A stretch of 34,330 bases of DNA from Nitrososphaerales archaeon (GTDB lineage Archaea; Thermoproteota; Nitrososphaeria; Conexivisphaerales; Conexivisphaeraceae). Both the position numbers and the translations under genes were made by a program. Positions 11,084 to 30,541 of this stretch are shown here, piece after piece (positions within the stretch are counted from its first letter, which is position 1; each line of letters opens with the position of its first letter). The stretch lies in the NCBI GenBank assembly GCA_023256385.1, contig JAGDXL010000017.1:1-34330 (forward strand), read 5' to 3'. The notes below the pieces were generated by a model, which ran no database searches, had not been told where the DNA came from, and saw nothing but the letters and a program-made list of their open reading frames with translations.

Positions 11084-12319
11084 TCAGCGCCACGACTCCA
11101 AATAGCGCTTCTGCTCCTCCGTGAGCGAATCCAAGCCGACGCCCTCTATCCTGAGCTTCCTCCTAGCTATCTCCTCGTCAAGCTCGTCCGGGAGCGTGTA
11201 CACGCGTCTCTCGAGCCTGCCCCTGTTCCTCACTAGGTAGAGGACCGAGAGCAACTGCGTGGCGAAGCTCAGGTCCATGACCTCTATAGGGTGGCCGTCA
11301 GCCGCCACCAGATTGACGAGTCTACCCTCGCCGAGCAGGTAGAGGCGGCGCCCGTCGGGCATCACGAACTCCCTCACGTTGGGCCTCACCTCGTCCTCGG
11401 AGGTCGCCATAGATCTCAGGGCCTTCACGTCGACCTCCACGTCGAAGTGACCGGCATTCGCGAGTAAAGCCCCATCCTTCATGACCCTGAAGTGTTGATC
11501 TGTCAGGACCTTTATGTTACCAGTACAAGTGACAAATATGTCGCCCACCTTGGCGGCGTCCATGGATCCCATGACGTCGTAGCCATCCATGTAGGCCTCT
11601 AGCGCCTTGAATGGATCGATCTCAACCACTATGACGCGGGCGCCCAGCCCACGGAACCTCTCGGCCACGCCCTTTCCCACCCAACCGTACCCCAGGACCA
11701 CGACGCGCTTTCCGCCTATCTGCACGTTGGTGGACCTCAGCACGCCATCCACGACGCTCTGGCCGCTTCCGAAACGATTGTCATACAAATGCTTACTCTT
11801 GGCGTCATTGACGGCTATCACAGGAAACCCCAGGGCGCCGTCCCTCTCCATGGCACGAAAGCGGAGCACCCCAGTCGTGGTCTCCTCGGTAGCACCGAAC
11901 ACGCGGCCGGCTATGCCCGTCGAGTGCGCCATGACCGAGAGATCCGCGCCGTCGTCCACTATGACCTGAGGCCCATCGGCCAGTACACGCCGATGGTTCT
12001 CCTCATATTCCGAATCGGTCTCGCCCCTCCAGGCATAGACGCGGTATATCATCTGGGATAGCGCGGCCGCCACGTCGTCCTGCGCGCTCAGCGGATTGGA
12101 CGATGTTATCGATACGCGAGCGCCCAGCCTCTCCAGGCTGATGGCCAAGGCCGCAGTCTTGGCCTCCAGGTGAAGACTGATACCTACTGATATCCCGGCT
12201 AAGGGCTTCTCAGATTCCATCTCGGACACGAGCGATGAGAGAACGCGCATGCGGTTCATTGCCCACTCGATCTTCCTGCGCCCGGCGGGCGCCAGCCCGA
12301 CATCCCTGACTATGCTCAC
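11084..12319 (-). CDS. ahcY: S-adenosylhomocysteine (or S-inosylhomocysteine) hydrolase
   Basis: 411 residues from GTG 12319. Motifs: SVGISLHLEAKTAALA, DDGADLS, EETTTGVLRF, the NAD-domain loop VVVLGYGWVGKG, and the tail MDLSFATQLLSVLYLV. NAD-dependent cleavage yields homocysteine and a nucleoside, relieving product inhibition of methyltransferases. The frame reaches 12382, but GTG 12319 lies 26 nt after a TATA box (TTATAACC) and gives the N-terminus SIVRDVGLAPAGRRKIEWA expected for the family. The C-terminus is the short archaeal/Thermotoga type. It is convergent with the deaminase gene. Confidence 0.93.
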   Translation of the reverse strand: MSIVRDVGLAPAGRRKIEWAMNRMRVLSSLVSEMESEKPLAGISVGISLHLEAKTAALAISLERLGARVSITSSNPLSAQDDVAAALSQMIYRVYAWRGETDSEYEENHRRVLADGPQVIVDDGADLSVMAHSTGIAGRVFGATEETTTGVLRFRAMERDGALGFPVIAVNDAKSKHLYDNRFGSGQSVVDGVLRSTNVQIGGKRVVVLGYGWVGKGVAERFRGLGARVIVVEIDPFKALEAYMDGYDVMGSMDAAKVGDIFVTCTGNIKVLTDQHFRVMKDGALLANAGHFDVEVDVKALRSMATSEDEVRPNVREFVMPDGRRLYLLGEGRLVNLVAADGHPIEVMDLSFATQLLSVLYLVRNRGRLERRVYTLPDELDEEIARRKLRIEGVGLDSLTEEQKRYLESWR

Positions 12320-12339: not shown

Positions 12340-12367
12340 GGTTATAACTCCTTTTCCAACCTTTGAT
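12340..12367 (-). promoter_or_regulatory. ahcY core promoter, sharing a 28-bp sequence with the end of the TnpB element
   Basis: On the minus strand this holds a BRE-like purine stretch (GGAAAAGGA) followed by GTTATAACC, with the TATA centre 26 nt from GTG 12319. The 28 bases match 28406-28433 at 25 of 28 positions; all three differences are T/C transitions. Confidence 0.6.
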
Positions 12368-12415
12368 CGATAGATCGAACAAATTTCACAGATGGGTCGG
12401 AATTAATCCAAAGGA

Positions 12416-12423
12416 CTATAAAG
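12416..12423 (+). promoter_or_regulatory. TATA box of the geranylgeranyl-reductase-like gene
   Basis: CTATAAAG, preceded by an AAAGGA BRE-like stretch, centred 27 nt before GTG 12447. It supports that start over the open frame that reaches 12363. Confidence 0.6.
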
Positions 12424-12446: not shown

Positions 12447-13502
12447 GTGGCGGATGTCTTCATAGCGGGGACCGGGGTCGCGGGCTCCTATCTAGGGGCC
12501 AGATTGACGCTCTCAGGTGTAGATGTGGAGGGTGTGGATTCGCAGGACGTAACAAAGTACCATTCCGCATGCGCTTGGGCAACTAGCATCGAGGGGATGC
12601 GGGAACGTCTCCGCGCGCTGGACGTAGATATAGATGAATATGTGATGAGGGAGGCCAATGGCGTGTACGTGGATTTAGGAGGCACCCTGCACTACGTGCC
12701 AACACGCCACCTCGCTACATTCGATAAGCCGGCACTTATCAGGAAGCTCATCGGAAAGTTCCGGGTCAAGTATCCGGTGCGAATCAGGGGGATGCCCGAT
12801 GCATCGTCGCGGTTAGTGATAGATGCTACCGGCGTTCACAGGGTTGTCCTAGGACCTGCAGATCCCGGAACGGATTTCATGTTACCCGCCTACCAGCTGC
12901 GGGTGCGTTATCGGAACCCTCCTATGGAGGACTTCTACGTCAAGCCGTTCCCAAGGTACTCTGGATATCTCTGGTACTTCCCGCTAGGTGGTGGCGAGTT
13001 CTTCGTGGGAGCCGGGGATCTACATCATATGCACCTCGAATATCTCTCTGAGTTCTTGGAGAGGTATGCGCCGGACGATGTGCTATACAGGGAGGGCAGA
13101 CCGATCAGGATTTCTCCTCCGGGTATACTGAGACCGCTGGCTAGGCGGCCGCGGACAGTGGCGGTAGGTGAGGCGGCCGGCGTGGTGCTCCCGATACTTG
13201 GTGAGGGGATTCTTCCGAGCATGGAATCGGCCGAGATCCTCGCTAGGCGCATTCTGCAGGACGGGCCGGAAGCGCTCGATGTACGGCGCTATGAGGAAGA
13301 GCTGAAGAGGAAATTCTCAGCGTTCACCGCGGCGTATAGATTTGTGCGGAGAAAACAGTCCGGCACTTGCCGCGCGACAGATTTATCATGCATTGCGGAC
13401 GCATTAAGATTGGCGCTGTTCTTCGCGTCCAGCGGAGGCAGGAAGCTAACCGGGCTTGCCCCAAAGCTGGAGCACGTACGTCTGGCAGTGAGCCCGTTCT
13501 GA
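12447..13502 (+). CDS. FAD-dependent oxidoreductase, geranylgeranyl reductase family
   Basis: 351 residues from GTG 12447. The N-terminal Rossmann FAD site is VFIAGTGVAGSYLGARL (about 4-20). PRYSGYLWYFPLGGGEFFVGAGD and the second FAD motif TVAVGEAAGVVLPILGEGILPSMESAEILA follow. This is the digeranylgeranylglycerophospholipid reductase/para-hydroxybenzoate hydroxylase-like fold. In archaea such enzymes saturate isoprenoid chains of membrane lipids, but the family also contains other oxidoreductases, so the substrate is inferred. A GGAGGG stretch just before the start could act as a ribosome site, although the TATA spacing suggests a nearly leaderless mRNA. Confidence 0.75.
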   Translation: MADVFIAGTGVAGSYLGARLTLSGVDVEGVDSQDVTKYHSACAWATSIEGMRERLRALDVDIDEYVMREANGVYVDLGGTLHYVPTRHLATFDKPALIRKLIGKFRVKYPVRIRGMPDASSRLVIDATGVHRVVLGPADPGTDFMLPAYQLRVRYRNPPMEDFYVKPFPRYSGYLWYFPLGGGEFFVGAGDLHHMHLEYLSEFLERYAPDDVLYREGRPIRISPPGILRPLARRPRTVAVGEAAGVVLPILGEGILPSMESAEILARRILQDGPEALDVRRYEEELKRKFSAFTAAYRFVRRKQSGTCRATDLSCIADALRLALFFASSGGRKLTGLAPKLEHVRLAVSPF

Positions 13503-27235: not shown

Positions 27236-27655
27236 GTGCGAGATGTTGTGCGGCTAAGCCGATTTGTGGTGCGTCCAGATACGTCAACTAACGGTAGAGC
27301 CCTCCGCTTTATCATTAAATTTGTAAATAATTCAATTGATTTGTGGCAGGATGTTCGGCTCAGACCCAACTATTTAATAGGCAATTCCTTCGACTATAGT
27401 CCGATGTCCCAGCCTGAGATAATAGATTTTGAGATAGTGAAGGATTGTGGGTGGATGGAGCTGAAGCTAGCCAACGGCGCCATTTTGCGCGTGAAAGTGG
27501 AGCCGAGCGCTGTGGCGTATGCGGGCAACGATCCCAATACCGGGCTACCGATATTCTCGATACAGATAGGCGCTATAGTTCAACTCGCAAAGGTACCTCG
27601 CGAGCTCATGCGCAGACCTGGACAAGGTGAGCAGGCTCAAGGTGCATACAGATGA
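27236..27655 (+). CDS. Uncharacterised 139-residue protein
   Basis: From GTG 27236, 26 nt after TTAATAG. Residues 8-125 alternate strands and loops (FVVRPDTSTNGRALRFIIKF, LRPNYLIGNSFDYSPMS, ILRVKVEPSAVAYAGNDPN, SIQIGAIVQLAKVPRELM), suggesting a small beta-rich globular domain. Its base composition at the 5' end is more A/T-rich than the neighbours. I know no family or motif for it. Confidence 0.55.
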   Translation: MRDVVRLSRFVVRPDTSTNGRALRFIIKFVNNSIDLWQDVRLRPNYLIGNSFDYSPMSQPEIIDFEIVKDCGWMELKLANGAILRVKVEPSAVAYAGNDPNTGLPIFSIQIGAIVQLAKVPRELMRRPGQGEQAQGAYR

Positions 27656-28259: not shown

Positions 28260-28432
28260 ATTCATCATCCCACTACCCTCTCCGGGTTGGGATTTTGTCC
28301 GCGCTTAAGCTGCACATGTGGATAGCACTATTAACCATGTAACTTCTCACCCGCGACTGTAAGTAGCTAAAACCAGCGTACAGCACAATCCTTCTGCTCC
28401 CACAAGGTTATAACTCCTTTCCCAACTTTTGA
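28260..28432 (-). ncRNA. Candidate noncoding RNA downstream of tnpB (omega/reRNA-like)
   Basis: The 170 bases after the tnpB stop carry no gene. They include a TATA-like motif on the tnpB strand (GTTATAACC, 28406-28414) that could start a transcript near 28380, and then a strong hairpin (28267-28293). TnpB proteins use a guide RNA made from the 3' end of tnpB and the right end of the element (established for the family). That this stretch is such an RNA is inference from position and structure only. Confidence 0.3.
28267..28296 (+). terminator. Hairpin with T run after the 112-residue gene
   Basis: ATCCCA-ct-ACCC-TCTCC-GGGT-TGGGAT followed by TTT: ten paired bases with a 2-nt bulge. On the plus strand it lies 65 bp after the upstream gene and is followed by T residues, so it may terminate it. 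On the minus strand the same hairpin may belong to the tnpB right end. Confidence 0.45.
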
Positions 28433-28433
28433 C
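28406..28433. repeat. 28-bp sequence shared with the ahcY promoter
   Basis: GGTTATAACTCCTTT, then YCCAACYTTTGAY, matches 12340-12367 at 25 of 28 bases. It ends inside the last codon of tnpB and includes one arm of the hairpin at 28422-28441. Confidence 0.6.
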
Positions 28434-28441
28434 TAAGTTGG
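28422..28441. repeat. Inverted repeat at the tnpB stop codon
   Basis: CCAACTT-TTGACT-AAGTTGG: perfect 7-bp stem, 6-nt loop. It spans the tnpB stop and is a likely subterminal hairpin of the element's right end. Confidence 0.5.
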
Positions 28442-29917
28442 ATATGTGCCAGGGCTTTGGGCATTACCTCCCTTTGCGGAGGCTATACGGTTCGCGGGCA
28501 CGACCCCGCTGTGGTCCACGATGAACGAGAGCAGTCTGAGGTTCTCCTTCCCCTGGACCAGCACTCCGGAGCCGCGCCTCAGTATGTTGAGCGCGCCGTT
28601 GAGGTCGCTGTGCAGCCTGTGGTCGCCGACCGGGCACGTGACGATGCCGCGCGGATGCCGTGAGACCTCCGCGCCGTGGTAGGCGCAGTGGCTCGATGTC
28701 CCGCGCTCGAACACCTCGTAGACCGCGATCCCGTACTCGCGGGCCTTGGCCTCTATCACTCCCACCAGCTCGCGATAGGCCCATATGTTCACGCTGTACT
28801 TGTTCCCCCTCTCCTGTGCTATATCGTACGGGTAGCCCACGTAGATCGTGGAGACGCCGCTGGAGACGCCGCGGTCCCACAGCTCATGGATCAGATGTGA
28901 TGCCAGGTTCCTGTACAGGTGGAGGCGCCTAGCGGTCCACTTCCTCTTCAGCCGCCTCACCTCTGCCCACAGCTTGTAATACTTCACCTCGTCGCCCCCT
29001 GCCTTGGCGTGGGCGGCCTCCGACTCCAGCCTCGCTATCCTTCCCTCGAAATAGAAGTAGTCCTCCTTCAGCCTAGCTCCCCTGTAGAGGAGCCACGCCC
29101 CGTCGCTGACCACGACGGACGCGATGATGTTCACCCCGAGGTCTATGCCCGCGACCTCGTCGCCCTTCGGCCTGGCGACCTCTATCGAGCGGCGCTTCCC
29201 CTGCACTATGTGCGGTGGCCTGGTGCCGTTCCTCGTCGTCTCCGCTCCGACCTGCACGGCTATGGACGCGTACCATGCATGCCTAGCGTCGTCGTACCAT
29301 ATCTCCATCCTCCCCTGCTTCCCGTACCAACGGATCTCGCCAGCGAACCGCAGGTGCAGGTTGTAGCGAGGTATGTAGATGACGTGCGCCTCCGGATCCA
29401 CGGTGTACATCTCGTGGCGCACCGGGATCCATAACCGGCGCCTCCCGGCCGCGCGGTCCTTCCTGTAGCCCGGCGGCGATGGATGGATCCACGGCGGCAG
29501 CCTGCCCTCGAACTTGGCCACAAGTGTCTTCCTGAACGCACTCCAGGCCTCCGAGTTCTTCCTCTCCACCTCCCAGGCCGCCGCGCCGAGGACCTCCGTG
29601 TACTTCGGCACATGCTTCTTCCGCGTGCCCCTGAGATCCACATGTTTCAGGCTGGCCCATTGCGACATCCCCCGTCTTCTAGCCTCGAAGTACTCCTGTC
29701 TCCTCTCGTAGCTCAGCTCGTTCCATAACCGCGAGGCGGCGTCCGCTAGGCGCCGCAGTTTGCGCTCCTGCGCGCCGCTGGGGAGGAGGCGAACGATGAC
29801 GGCGCGCACTCCGTTGTCCTCCGGCGCGGGGAAGACCATGTTATCCGTTGACGTTGATGTGCCCGGCCCCTCGAGCGCCGGGTTGAATTGTGGAGTCATC
29901 CCCGTGCCGTTATCCAT
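28433..29917 (-). CDS. tnpB: TnpB, RNA-guided RuvC-like nuclease, with non-canonical RuvC-II site
   Basis: The frame opens at 29935 (500 residues). ATG at its residue 7 (29917) is 28 nt from the TATA-like ACTTTTTAAG and is my start (494 residues). Numbering from 29935: a Ser/Thr/Pro-rich leader to about 42, a wedge/REC region, RuvC-I D265 in VAGIDLGVNI, a charged helical pair at 285-350, YVGYPYDIAQERGNKYSVNI at 365-384, FERGTSSHC at 409-417, and RuvC-III D444 in HSDLNGALNIL. In most TnpBs the RuvC-II glutamate sits in an EDL-type motif; here that place reads VGYP (G367). E410 just before the TSS is a candidate substitute. The zinc knuckle is C417-x2-H420 and C434-x4-H439 rather than four cysteines. 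Confidence 0.9.
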   Translation of the reverse strand: MDNGTGMTPQFNPALEGPGTSTSTDNMVFPAPEDNGVRAVIVRLLPSGAQERKLRRLADAASRLWNELSYERRQEYFEARRRGMSQWASLKHVDLRGTRKKHVPKYTEVLGAAAWEVERKNSEAWSAFRKTLVAKFEGRLPPWIHPSPPGYRKDRAAGRRRLWIPVRHEMYTVDPEAHVIYIPRYNLHLRFAGEIRWYGKQGRMEIWYDDARHAWYASIAVQVGAETTRNGTRPPHIVQGKRRSIEVARPKGDEVAGIDLGVNIIASVVVSDGAWLLYRGARLKEDYFYFEGRIARLESEAAHAKAGGDEVKYYKLWAEVRRLKRKWTARRLHLYRNLASHLIHELWDRGVSSGVSTIYVGYPYDIAQERGNKYSVNIWAYRELVGVIEAKAREYGIAVYEVFERGTSSHCAYHGAEVSRHPRGIVTCPVGDHRLHSDLNGALNILRRGSGVLVQGKENLRLLSFIVDHSGVVPANRIASAKGGNAQSPGTYPT

Positions 29918-29938
29918 CGACTCAACTATATACATGCT

Positions 29939-29951
29939 AACTTAAAAAGTT
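29939..29951. promoter_or_regulatory. Palindrome containing the tnpB TATA box
   Basis: AACTT-AAA-AAGTT. On the minus strand CTTTTTAAG is centred 28 nt before ATG 29917. The palindrome may double as the left-end hairpin of the element. Confidence 0.5.
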
Positions 29952-30073
29952 TTTTATTGAATCAGAGACGGGCGGTGCAAATAGATGATCGCTTGAAACG
30001 ATTTTATTTATACATAAAAATGTTCAGTGGCTCAAGCCAAAGAACTATTACGCTGGTCGCTAAAACCTTTGAC

Positions 30074-30541
30074 GTGGAACATAAGTACAGGAAGGTCGCG
30101 ATAGGCGGCACGTTTGATCCATTTCACAGAGGTCATCGTGCGCTGATCGATGCGGCGTTCTCAATCGGCGACGAGGTGCTCATAGGGCTCAGCTCCGACG
30201 AGCTCGCGCAGAGGATGGGGAAATCCCCGGATAGGTCCTTCGAGGAGCGCGCCTGCGACCTCCTGGAGTATCTTGAGTCGAAGTACCGCGACAGGATCTA
30301 CGCGATATACAAGCTAGAGGACCCGTTCGGTCCCCTGGCGCAGGATCCGAGCATAGAGGCGCTGGTGGTCAGCCCCGAGACCGAGGAGAGGGGGAGCGCG
30401 GCGAACGCGGCCAGGAGGTCCCGGGGGCTCGGCGAGGTCGACGTGGTGCGGATAGACTTCGTGCTCGCGGAGGACGGGGAGCCCATAAGCTCCCGCCGCA
30501 TAAGGAAAGGCGAGATAGATAAGGAGGGCAGGATTCTGTAG
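30074..30541 (+). CDS. coaD: Phosphopantetheine adenylyltransferase, archaeal type
   Basis: 155 residues from GTG 30074. It has the nucleotidyltransferase loop VAIGGTFDPFHRGH at the N-terminus, LIGLSSDELAQRMGK, and the C-terminal ISSRRIRKGEI motif. The enzyme converts 4'-phosphopantetheine and ATP to dephospho-CoA in coenzyme A synthesis. The frame is open much further upstream, and an ATG at 30020 exists. The codons between 30020 and 30073 look unlike gene sequence, and a TATA-like CTATTA lies 27 nt before GTG 30074. pheS follows with no gap, so the three genes coaD-pheS-pheT probably share a transcript. Confidence 0.85.
   Translation: MEHKYRKVAIGGTFDPFHRGHRALIDAAFSIGDEVLIGLSSDELAQRMGKSPDRSFEERACDLLEYLESKYRDRIYAIYKLEDPFGPLAQDPSIEALVVSPETEERGSAANAARRSRGLGEVDVVRIDFVLAEDGEPISSRRIRKGEIDKEGRIL

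Follow-up and report, generated by a model that had tools for sequence, protein, structure and literature searches.

A Family of Archaeal TnpB Elements That Probably Enters TTTAA TATA Boxes and Replaces Them with Its Own Ends

A family of TnpB elements of the IS1341 type (IS200/IS605) very probably enters TTTAA motifs that act as TATA boxes in an archaeal genome and replaces them with its own ends, the sequence in front of the adenosylhomocysteinase-like gene ahcY being a derivative of that family. This reading starts from direct observations, namely a sequence match between the ahcY promoter region and the end of a tnpB gene in the 34,330-nt stretch of DNA that was analyzed (the window), the presence of both element ends at ahcY, insertion inside TTTAA, and exact spacing to the genes downstream. 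In the mechanism that we propose, the element would insert inside TTTAA, the TATA box of mostly leaderless promoters, and the left junction would become TTTATA on insertion. The right end (GAAAGGRGTTATAA) would place a TATA box, together with a BRE-like stretch rich in A, where the box of the target had stood, and the downstream gene would keep a core promoter at a spacing of 22 to 27 nt. The left junction, read in reverse (AAAGAAC-TATAAA), would do likewise for a divergent neighbor. At ahcY, a derivative of ~76 nt would have split a box shared by ahcY and the divergent gene into two core promoters.

Genomes and Gene Models

The window belongs to an archaeal bin (560 kb, 55% complete), 96% of which was covered by the stretches analyzed. 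It was compared with a sister genome of the same genus, a single 1.594-Mb contig that is 99% complete and was covered whole, and with an outgroup from the same genus whose ahcY is 81% identical to that of the window. A gene set of 2,076 genes was called by codon bias, with predicted start codons, and gene names come from reading the sequences rather than from family searches. The ahcY start at 12319 comes from a coding-potential caller, whereas the starts of gatB, pyrB, and the rpb10-like and RNA-methyltransferase-like genes were picked by hand among in-frame candidates rather than taken from the automated call.

Two Copies of a 28-mer in the Window

The sequences at 12340-12367 (GGTTATAACTCCTTTTCCAACCTTTGAT) and 28406-28433 (GGTTATAACTCCTTTCCCAACTTTTGAC), both with the minus strand as the functional strand, are identical at 25 of 28 bases, and re-reading them bore out the statement of an earlier note on this DNA that all the differences are T/C transitions, three in number. 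In minus-strand form both read RTCAAARGTTGGRAAAGGAGTTATAA followed by CC. When every 28-mer pair with at most three mismatches was counted on both strands of the 34-kb window, only two loci were recovered, the 12340/28406 pair and a stretch common to the V-ATPase A and B paralogues; 30 simulated order-2 Markov windows yielded no such pair, which agrees with the same note's view that the match is beyond chance. The terminal CC lies outside the element, and its agreement is a coincidence because other copies vary at those two bases (TC, GC, AG, TA, and others). The placement of the two copies also stands as first described: the copy at 12340 would supply the ahcY TATA box, TTATAA at 12342-12347, 22 nt ahead of the likely GTG start at 12319, and the copy at 28406 adjoins the tnpB stop codon and takes in half of the tnpB hairpin.

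The TnpB Element and Its Family

The tnpB gene (28436-29935, minus strand) was recognized by domain matches to OrfB_IS605 and the Cas12f1-like TNB domain (PF01385, E = 3.5e-22; PF07282, E = 1.1e-10). TldRs, which are named in PMC13418256, are nuclease-dead TnpB-like transcription regulators, and the window's protein is like them in being a TnpB relative whose guide region would fall in promoters. We rejected assignment to the TldRs: the canonical RuvC-II glutamate position aligns with a glycine, but, unlike in TldRs, a glutamate is retained at an alternative position (residue ~410, with the RuvC-I aspartate at ~263 and the RuvC-III aspartate at ~444), six residues ahead of a zinc-finger cysteine (VFERGTSSHC), in all five TnpB copies checked. 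Such an alternative-position glutamate corresponds to the "Ealt" layout (PMC10711439), and its retention in all five copies leads us to expect that this TnpB is nuclease active.

The right end of the element, at 28408-28492 (minus strand), is an 85-nt unit with two hairpins, described by a profile with more than 30 copies. Read 5′ to 3′, it consists of a CCTCCnCAAAGGGAGG hairpin, GCCC...GGC, a hairpin formed by CCAACTT and AAGTTGG, and then GGGAAAGGGGTTATAA, closing as ...GGRGTTATAA. Conservation stops at TTATAA, and the sequence beyond differs from copy to copy, which is the layout expected of a TnpB right end that carries a putative omegaRNA scaffold with the flank as guide; the ~20 nt downstream of the right end (28407 to ~28388) would be the putative guide. 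The predicted RNA fold of the right end (−25.4 kcal/mol) is better than that of shuffled sequences (z = −2.5), and a search of Rfam with the right end gave zero matches. The left end (GTTCTTTGGCTTGAG...) was located by profile at 29936-30045 (minus strand), and its junction, which reads AAAGAACTATTA on the plus strand, stands 22 to 23 nt ahead of the GTG at 30074 that begins a coaD-like gene. The copy as a whole (28408-30045) joins the flanks of two insertions: its right flank corresponds to an empty site at 182.6 kb in the sister genome and its left flank to coaD/map at 46.5 kb, and the counterparts of these two halves are found at C2:661 and C29:139 of the window's bin. Either recombination between copies or misassembly of the bin would produce such mixed flanks.

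Profile searches of the two genomes identified ~35 right ends and ~30 left ends, the family form of the left end being TTTATA/GTTCTTTGATTAATATTTGACGTATAAATAAAATC (slashes mark junctions here and below). Far more copies are found in the sister genome, which contains five near-intact tnpB genes plus many decayed or miniature copies. Among 61 relatives, several right ends occur only in the window's genome and the sister genome; scattered matches in other relatives were no commoner than those of a reversed-pattern control, and the three that were inspected (L067, L071, and L081) are unlike the family right end. Two tnpB copies of the sister genome (C1:972991-974494 and 1045365-1046853) are 77 to 78% identical to that of the window and have a different right end, ...GGGCCCGGGATAGGGGTCA, which suggests that, inside a single genome, the element recently exchanged its ends and its target. 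The copy at 1045 kb has a second right end upstream of it, in inverted orientation.

The features of the family are those of the tnpB-only IS1341 group of IS200/IS605: a TnpB with RuvC and TNB domains, a subterminal right-end hairpin (CCAACTT with AAGTTGG), neither terminal inverted repeats nor a long target duplication, and insertion 3′ of a short A/T motif, TTTAA becoming TTTATA...TTATAA. There is no tnpA in the element, and no Y1 transposase (PF01797) was found in the four genomes searched (G000-G003), the nearly complete sister genome included. Assignment to IS607, which uses a serine recombinase, was rejected, the target being TTTAA and not GG; serine recombinase genes do occur in these genomes, all those seen being outside the elements. 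Several noncoding copies retain both ends around an internal deletion (~76 nt at ahcY; ~80 to 320 nt at 266k, 308k, 239k, and 942139), as is usual for miniature nonautonomous elements. They are not classical MITEs, since the left end (TAGTTCTTTG) and the right end (GGRGTTATA) are not inverted repeats of each other.

Filled and Empty Sites

Comparison of filled and empty sites shows that insertion takes place inside TTTAA. Ten orthologous pairs of filled and empty sites were found between the window's genome and the sister genome. In nine of them (the window's tnpB, the window site at 27378, gatB, rpiA, C10:238, an OBG-type GTPase, tRNA-Lys, 279k, and pyrB), TTTAA/N′ at the empty site corresponds to the right end ...TTATAA/N′ at the filled one. 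The tenth pair (119k) has TTAG/N′ when empty and TTATAG/N′ when filled, so the last base belongs to the flank. On the left, filled sites read TTTATA/GTTC or a close variant wherever that side was available. The simplest parse would be TTTA/TAGTTC...GTTATA/A, and a TA core would fit equally, the exact cut being ambiguous by 1 to 2 bases (TTTA/A or TA core). An empty target is preserved in the window itself, TTTAA at 27373-27377 (plus strand), 26 nt ahead of the ATG at 27404; the orthologous site of the sister genome contains the element, with the right-end TTATAA at the identical 26-nt spacing.

Element Ends at Promoter Positions

TTTAA is the predicted TATA box of this archaeon. Genome-wide, TTTATA and TTTAA were found 20 to 28 nt ahead of starts at 14% of sites versus 0.46% of random positions, and with the codon-bias gene calls, their distance to the start has a sharp peak at 21 to 27 nt, which makes genes of this kind look leaderless. 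Several starts in the sister genome have another recurrent type of promoter, which is CCCCTRACATCTTATAAA-like.

The right-end TTATAA lies 22 to 27 nt ahead of the starts of ahcY, gatB, rpiA, hemC, pyrB, the rpb10-like gene, PAC2, RNA-methyltransferase-like and metallophosphoesterase-like genes, and others, and 23 nt ahead of tRNA-Lys. Roughly half of the right ends have no called gene start at 20 to 28 nt. With automated starts, promoter spacing is seen for ~9 of 31 independent right ends versus 17.8% of all intergenic TTTAA sites, so that any favoring of promoters over and above the TTTAA motif itself is only suggested and not proven.

The left junction presents the same arrangement to the other side. 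In TATAAA promoters of the sister genome, the host BRE is A-rich (AAA 5 to 7 nt upstream of the TATA box), and the reversed left junction, AAAGAAC-TATAAA, has an A-rich stretch at this position. In that genome ~15 left-end-type sites have a divergent gene start 20 to 32 nt away, and by position and motif the left-junction TATAAA would supply divergent genes such as GGR (geranylgeranyl-reductase-like), coaD, and mvk. At mvk and at an acyl-CoA dehydrogenase gene, the outgroup has TTAAA at the same position where the sister genome has TATAAA, as expected if the element entered TTTAA on the opposite strand. Some of the left-end-type promoters, recognized by a 7-base match plus weaker similarity, may be host promoters that converged on this form. 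The divergent pair coaD/map shares a GTTAA box in the sister genome; in the window's genome, the coaD side carries the left end (window 30045) and map carries the right end (contig C29).

The position and motif of the right-end and left-junction TATA boxes suggest that they are bound by TBP and transcribed. We also infer that TnpB recognizes TTTAA and that TATAA, one base away from it, still works as a TATA box but evades TnpB. We see an even chance that the right end is constrained in both respects, as a TATAA competent for TBP and unlike the TTTAA of TnpB, and that core promoters have been rewired or supplied by the elements at ~25 genes. If so, insertion into essential promoters would be nearly harmless and invisible to TnpB, empty TTTAA alleles would stay cleavable, and the ~25 genes would include cases in which a shared divergent TATA box was split into two. 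The prediction that follows is that the right-end TATAA is accepted by TBP and rejected by TnpB.

The TATA boxes could instead be incidental, TTTA being chosen for transposase reasons and the right-end TTATA arising because the cleavage motifs of the two ends are alike, with no function in expression. Left and right cleavage motifs are indeed related in IS200/IS605 elements, and many copies of the present family are distant from gene starts. The TTTAA motif is, moreover, the left motif, insertion site, and TAM of IS605 TnpB elements in Sulfolobus islandicus (PMC10640517, PMC11043419). Decayed copies at ahcY, hemC, the HMGR-like gene, and mvk, however, have kept their TATA-bearing ends with the remainder of the element gone, as would be the case if the ends were in use, and without these ends the essential gatB, tRNA-Lys, and ahcY would have no TATA box at their starts. 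We regard a purely incidental restoration of the TATA box as rather unlikely, though clearly the strongest of the alternatives.

The ahcY/GGR Intergenic Region

The replacement of TATA boxes by element ends can be followed most closely at ahcY (11084-12319, minus strand; orthologues in seven relatives at 45 to 81% identity), whose GTG start is likely leaderless and which is divergent from GGR (12447-13502, plus strand; GTG start at 12447), a name again given from sequence reading. A miniature element of ~76 nt (12343-12418, minus strand), parsed as TTTA/TAGTCC...GTTATA/A, is predicted between them, both of its ends having been recovered by PSSM. The right-end core RTCAAARGTTGGAAAAGGAGTTATAA (12342-12367, minus strand) scores 25.5 bits and ranks 14th among 558 TTATAA sites (background mean −27.6, SD 8.8). 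The left end, TTTATA/GTCCTTTGGATTAAT, lies on the same strand 75 nt upstream of the right end and, with one inserted base permitted, scores 14.0 bits, ranking 18th among 509 TTTATA sites (background −15.8, SD 8.5). Its junction is TTTATA on the minus strand and hence TATAAA on the plus strand (12417-12422), 24 nt ahead of the GGR GTG, and the AAAGGAC directly upstream of that TATAAA comes from the left end of the element. Because both ends score and the interior resembles that of a short copy at 942139 in the sister genome (GCATCTGTGAAAT-AGTTTCGATCTA), the ahcY copy is best read as an internally deleted element that has kept a left and a right end. The sibling at C1:942139 has the right end GGGAAAAGGGTCATA, whose form lies between the GTCA type of end and the TTATA type.

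A near-identical copy occupies the same place in the sister genome. In the outgroup, the region between ahcY and the divergent gene is far shorter and contains no element; it has one A/T box, TTATTATTTTA, ~22 nt from the ahcY GTG and at a similar distance from the divergent gene. Before the insertion, ahcY and the divergent gene probably had one box in common, which the element entered and divided into two core promoters; in the simplest history, ahcY would now use TTATAA at 22 nt and GGR TATAAA at 24 nt. The earlier note had proposed either that an element end became a promoter or that the element captured, or sits beside, a promoter-like target. The first of these proposals gains support at ahcY from the two ends in the intergenic region and from the shorter, element-free region of the outgroup, and proximity to a promoter-like target proves true in a stronger form, as the family inserts into the TATA boxes (TTTAA) themselves.

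Independent origin of the 28-mer at ahcY and at the tnpB end, whether as a regulatory site of the host or as a strong BRE/TATA consensus, is very improbable. The host BRE is A-rich, and the GAAAAGG-TTATAA part could for that reason be convergent, but the match runs 11 bases further upstream than the BRE, a correctly oriented left end accompanies it, and the outgroup lacks the whole insert. The distribution of right-end scores is, besides, bimodal: 26 sites exceed 9 bits, a single site has 4.2, and the remainder are far below. Many copies in ordinary promoters had been put forward as the sign of a common regulator site unrelated to the element; many promoter copies do exist, but they are recognizable element ends, so that the 28-mer is not such a site. 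Even less probable is capture, in which the right end would derive from the ahcY promoter: the ahcY copy is indeed fixed in both species in a conserved gene context, but the right end is no fragment of ahcY: it is a conserved 85-nt omegaRNA-like unit common to the tnpB copies, and its placement is that of the hairpins at the right ends of distant archaeal TnpB elements (...GGCGGGGAGGAGGTCAG). The ahcY copy has a left end too and is absent from the outgroup.

Relation to Known Elements

The family that appears to replace TATA boxes resembles the IS200/IS605 elements of S. islandicus in its TnpB gene, a 3′-end omegaRNA followed by a variable guide, an AT-rich TTTAA target, and the lack of terminal inverted repeats. 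It differs from them in its right end, TTATAA here but TTCAC rather than a TATA box in TnpB7, which leaves its own target, flanked by TTCAC, uncleaved (PMC10640517, PMC11043419), and in having insertions in TATA boxes and miniature derivatives that form divergent promoters. The solo-tnpB IS1341 group of S. islandicus has TTTAT as its left motif (PMC10640517, PMC11043419), which may be the same TTTAA-derived junction. An archaeal IS1341-type TnpB family with the GGCGGGGAGGAGGTCAG right end occurs in the outgroup, EvPrim.Bin21, and Marsarchaeota, with TnpB proteins 46 to 56% identical in the best-matching relatives. Both families have a hairpin and then a G-rich run at the right end, but the other ends in GGTCAG and has a TGAT/TGAC-like left flank, and its inspected copies in the outgroup are away from promoter TATA boxes. 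The Correia elements of Neisseria are promoter-bearing miniature elements (PMC10969869) and, like the short copies described here, are nonautonomous and lie upstream of genes with outward promoters; unlike them, they have bacterial sigma-70 promoters and terminal inverted repeats, whereas in the present family an archaeal TATA box is replaced in precisely the place that it had occupied.

Taken singly, neither a TTTAA target nor the carriage of outward promoters by a mobile element is new. The literature searched, from which subscription papers were mostly absent, contained no description of TnpB elements or insertion sequences in archaea that target TATA boxes and put a TATA box in their place. 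Within that literature, the combination of insertion into TATA boxes, an end that replaces the TATA box at exact spacing, and miniature divergent promoters is, as far as could be shown, new. It would represent a naturally occurring selfish element that aims at the core promoter and repairs it on arrival, with the geometry visible in the empty sites of the sister genome. It suggests a way for TnpB elements to persist in archaeal genomes that are compact and densely packed with genes, and it offers a traceable route from transposon ends to promoters of housekeeping genes, bidirectional ones included.

Elsewhere in the window, ARAGORN calls an 87-nt tRNA at 1973-2059 with the anticodon TTA and the label "Stop," which is probably a miscalled intron-bearing or long-arm tRNA.
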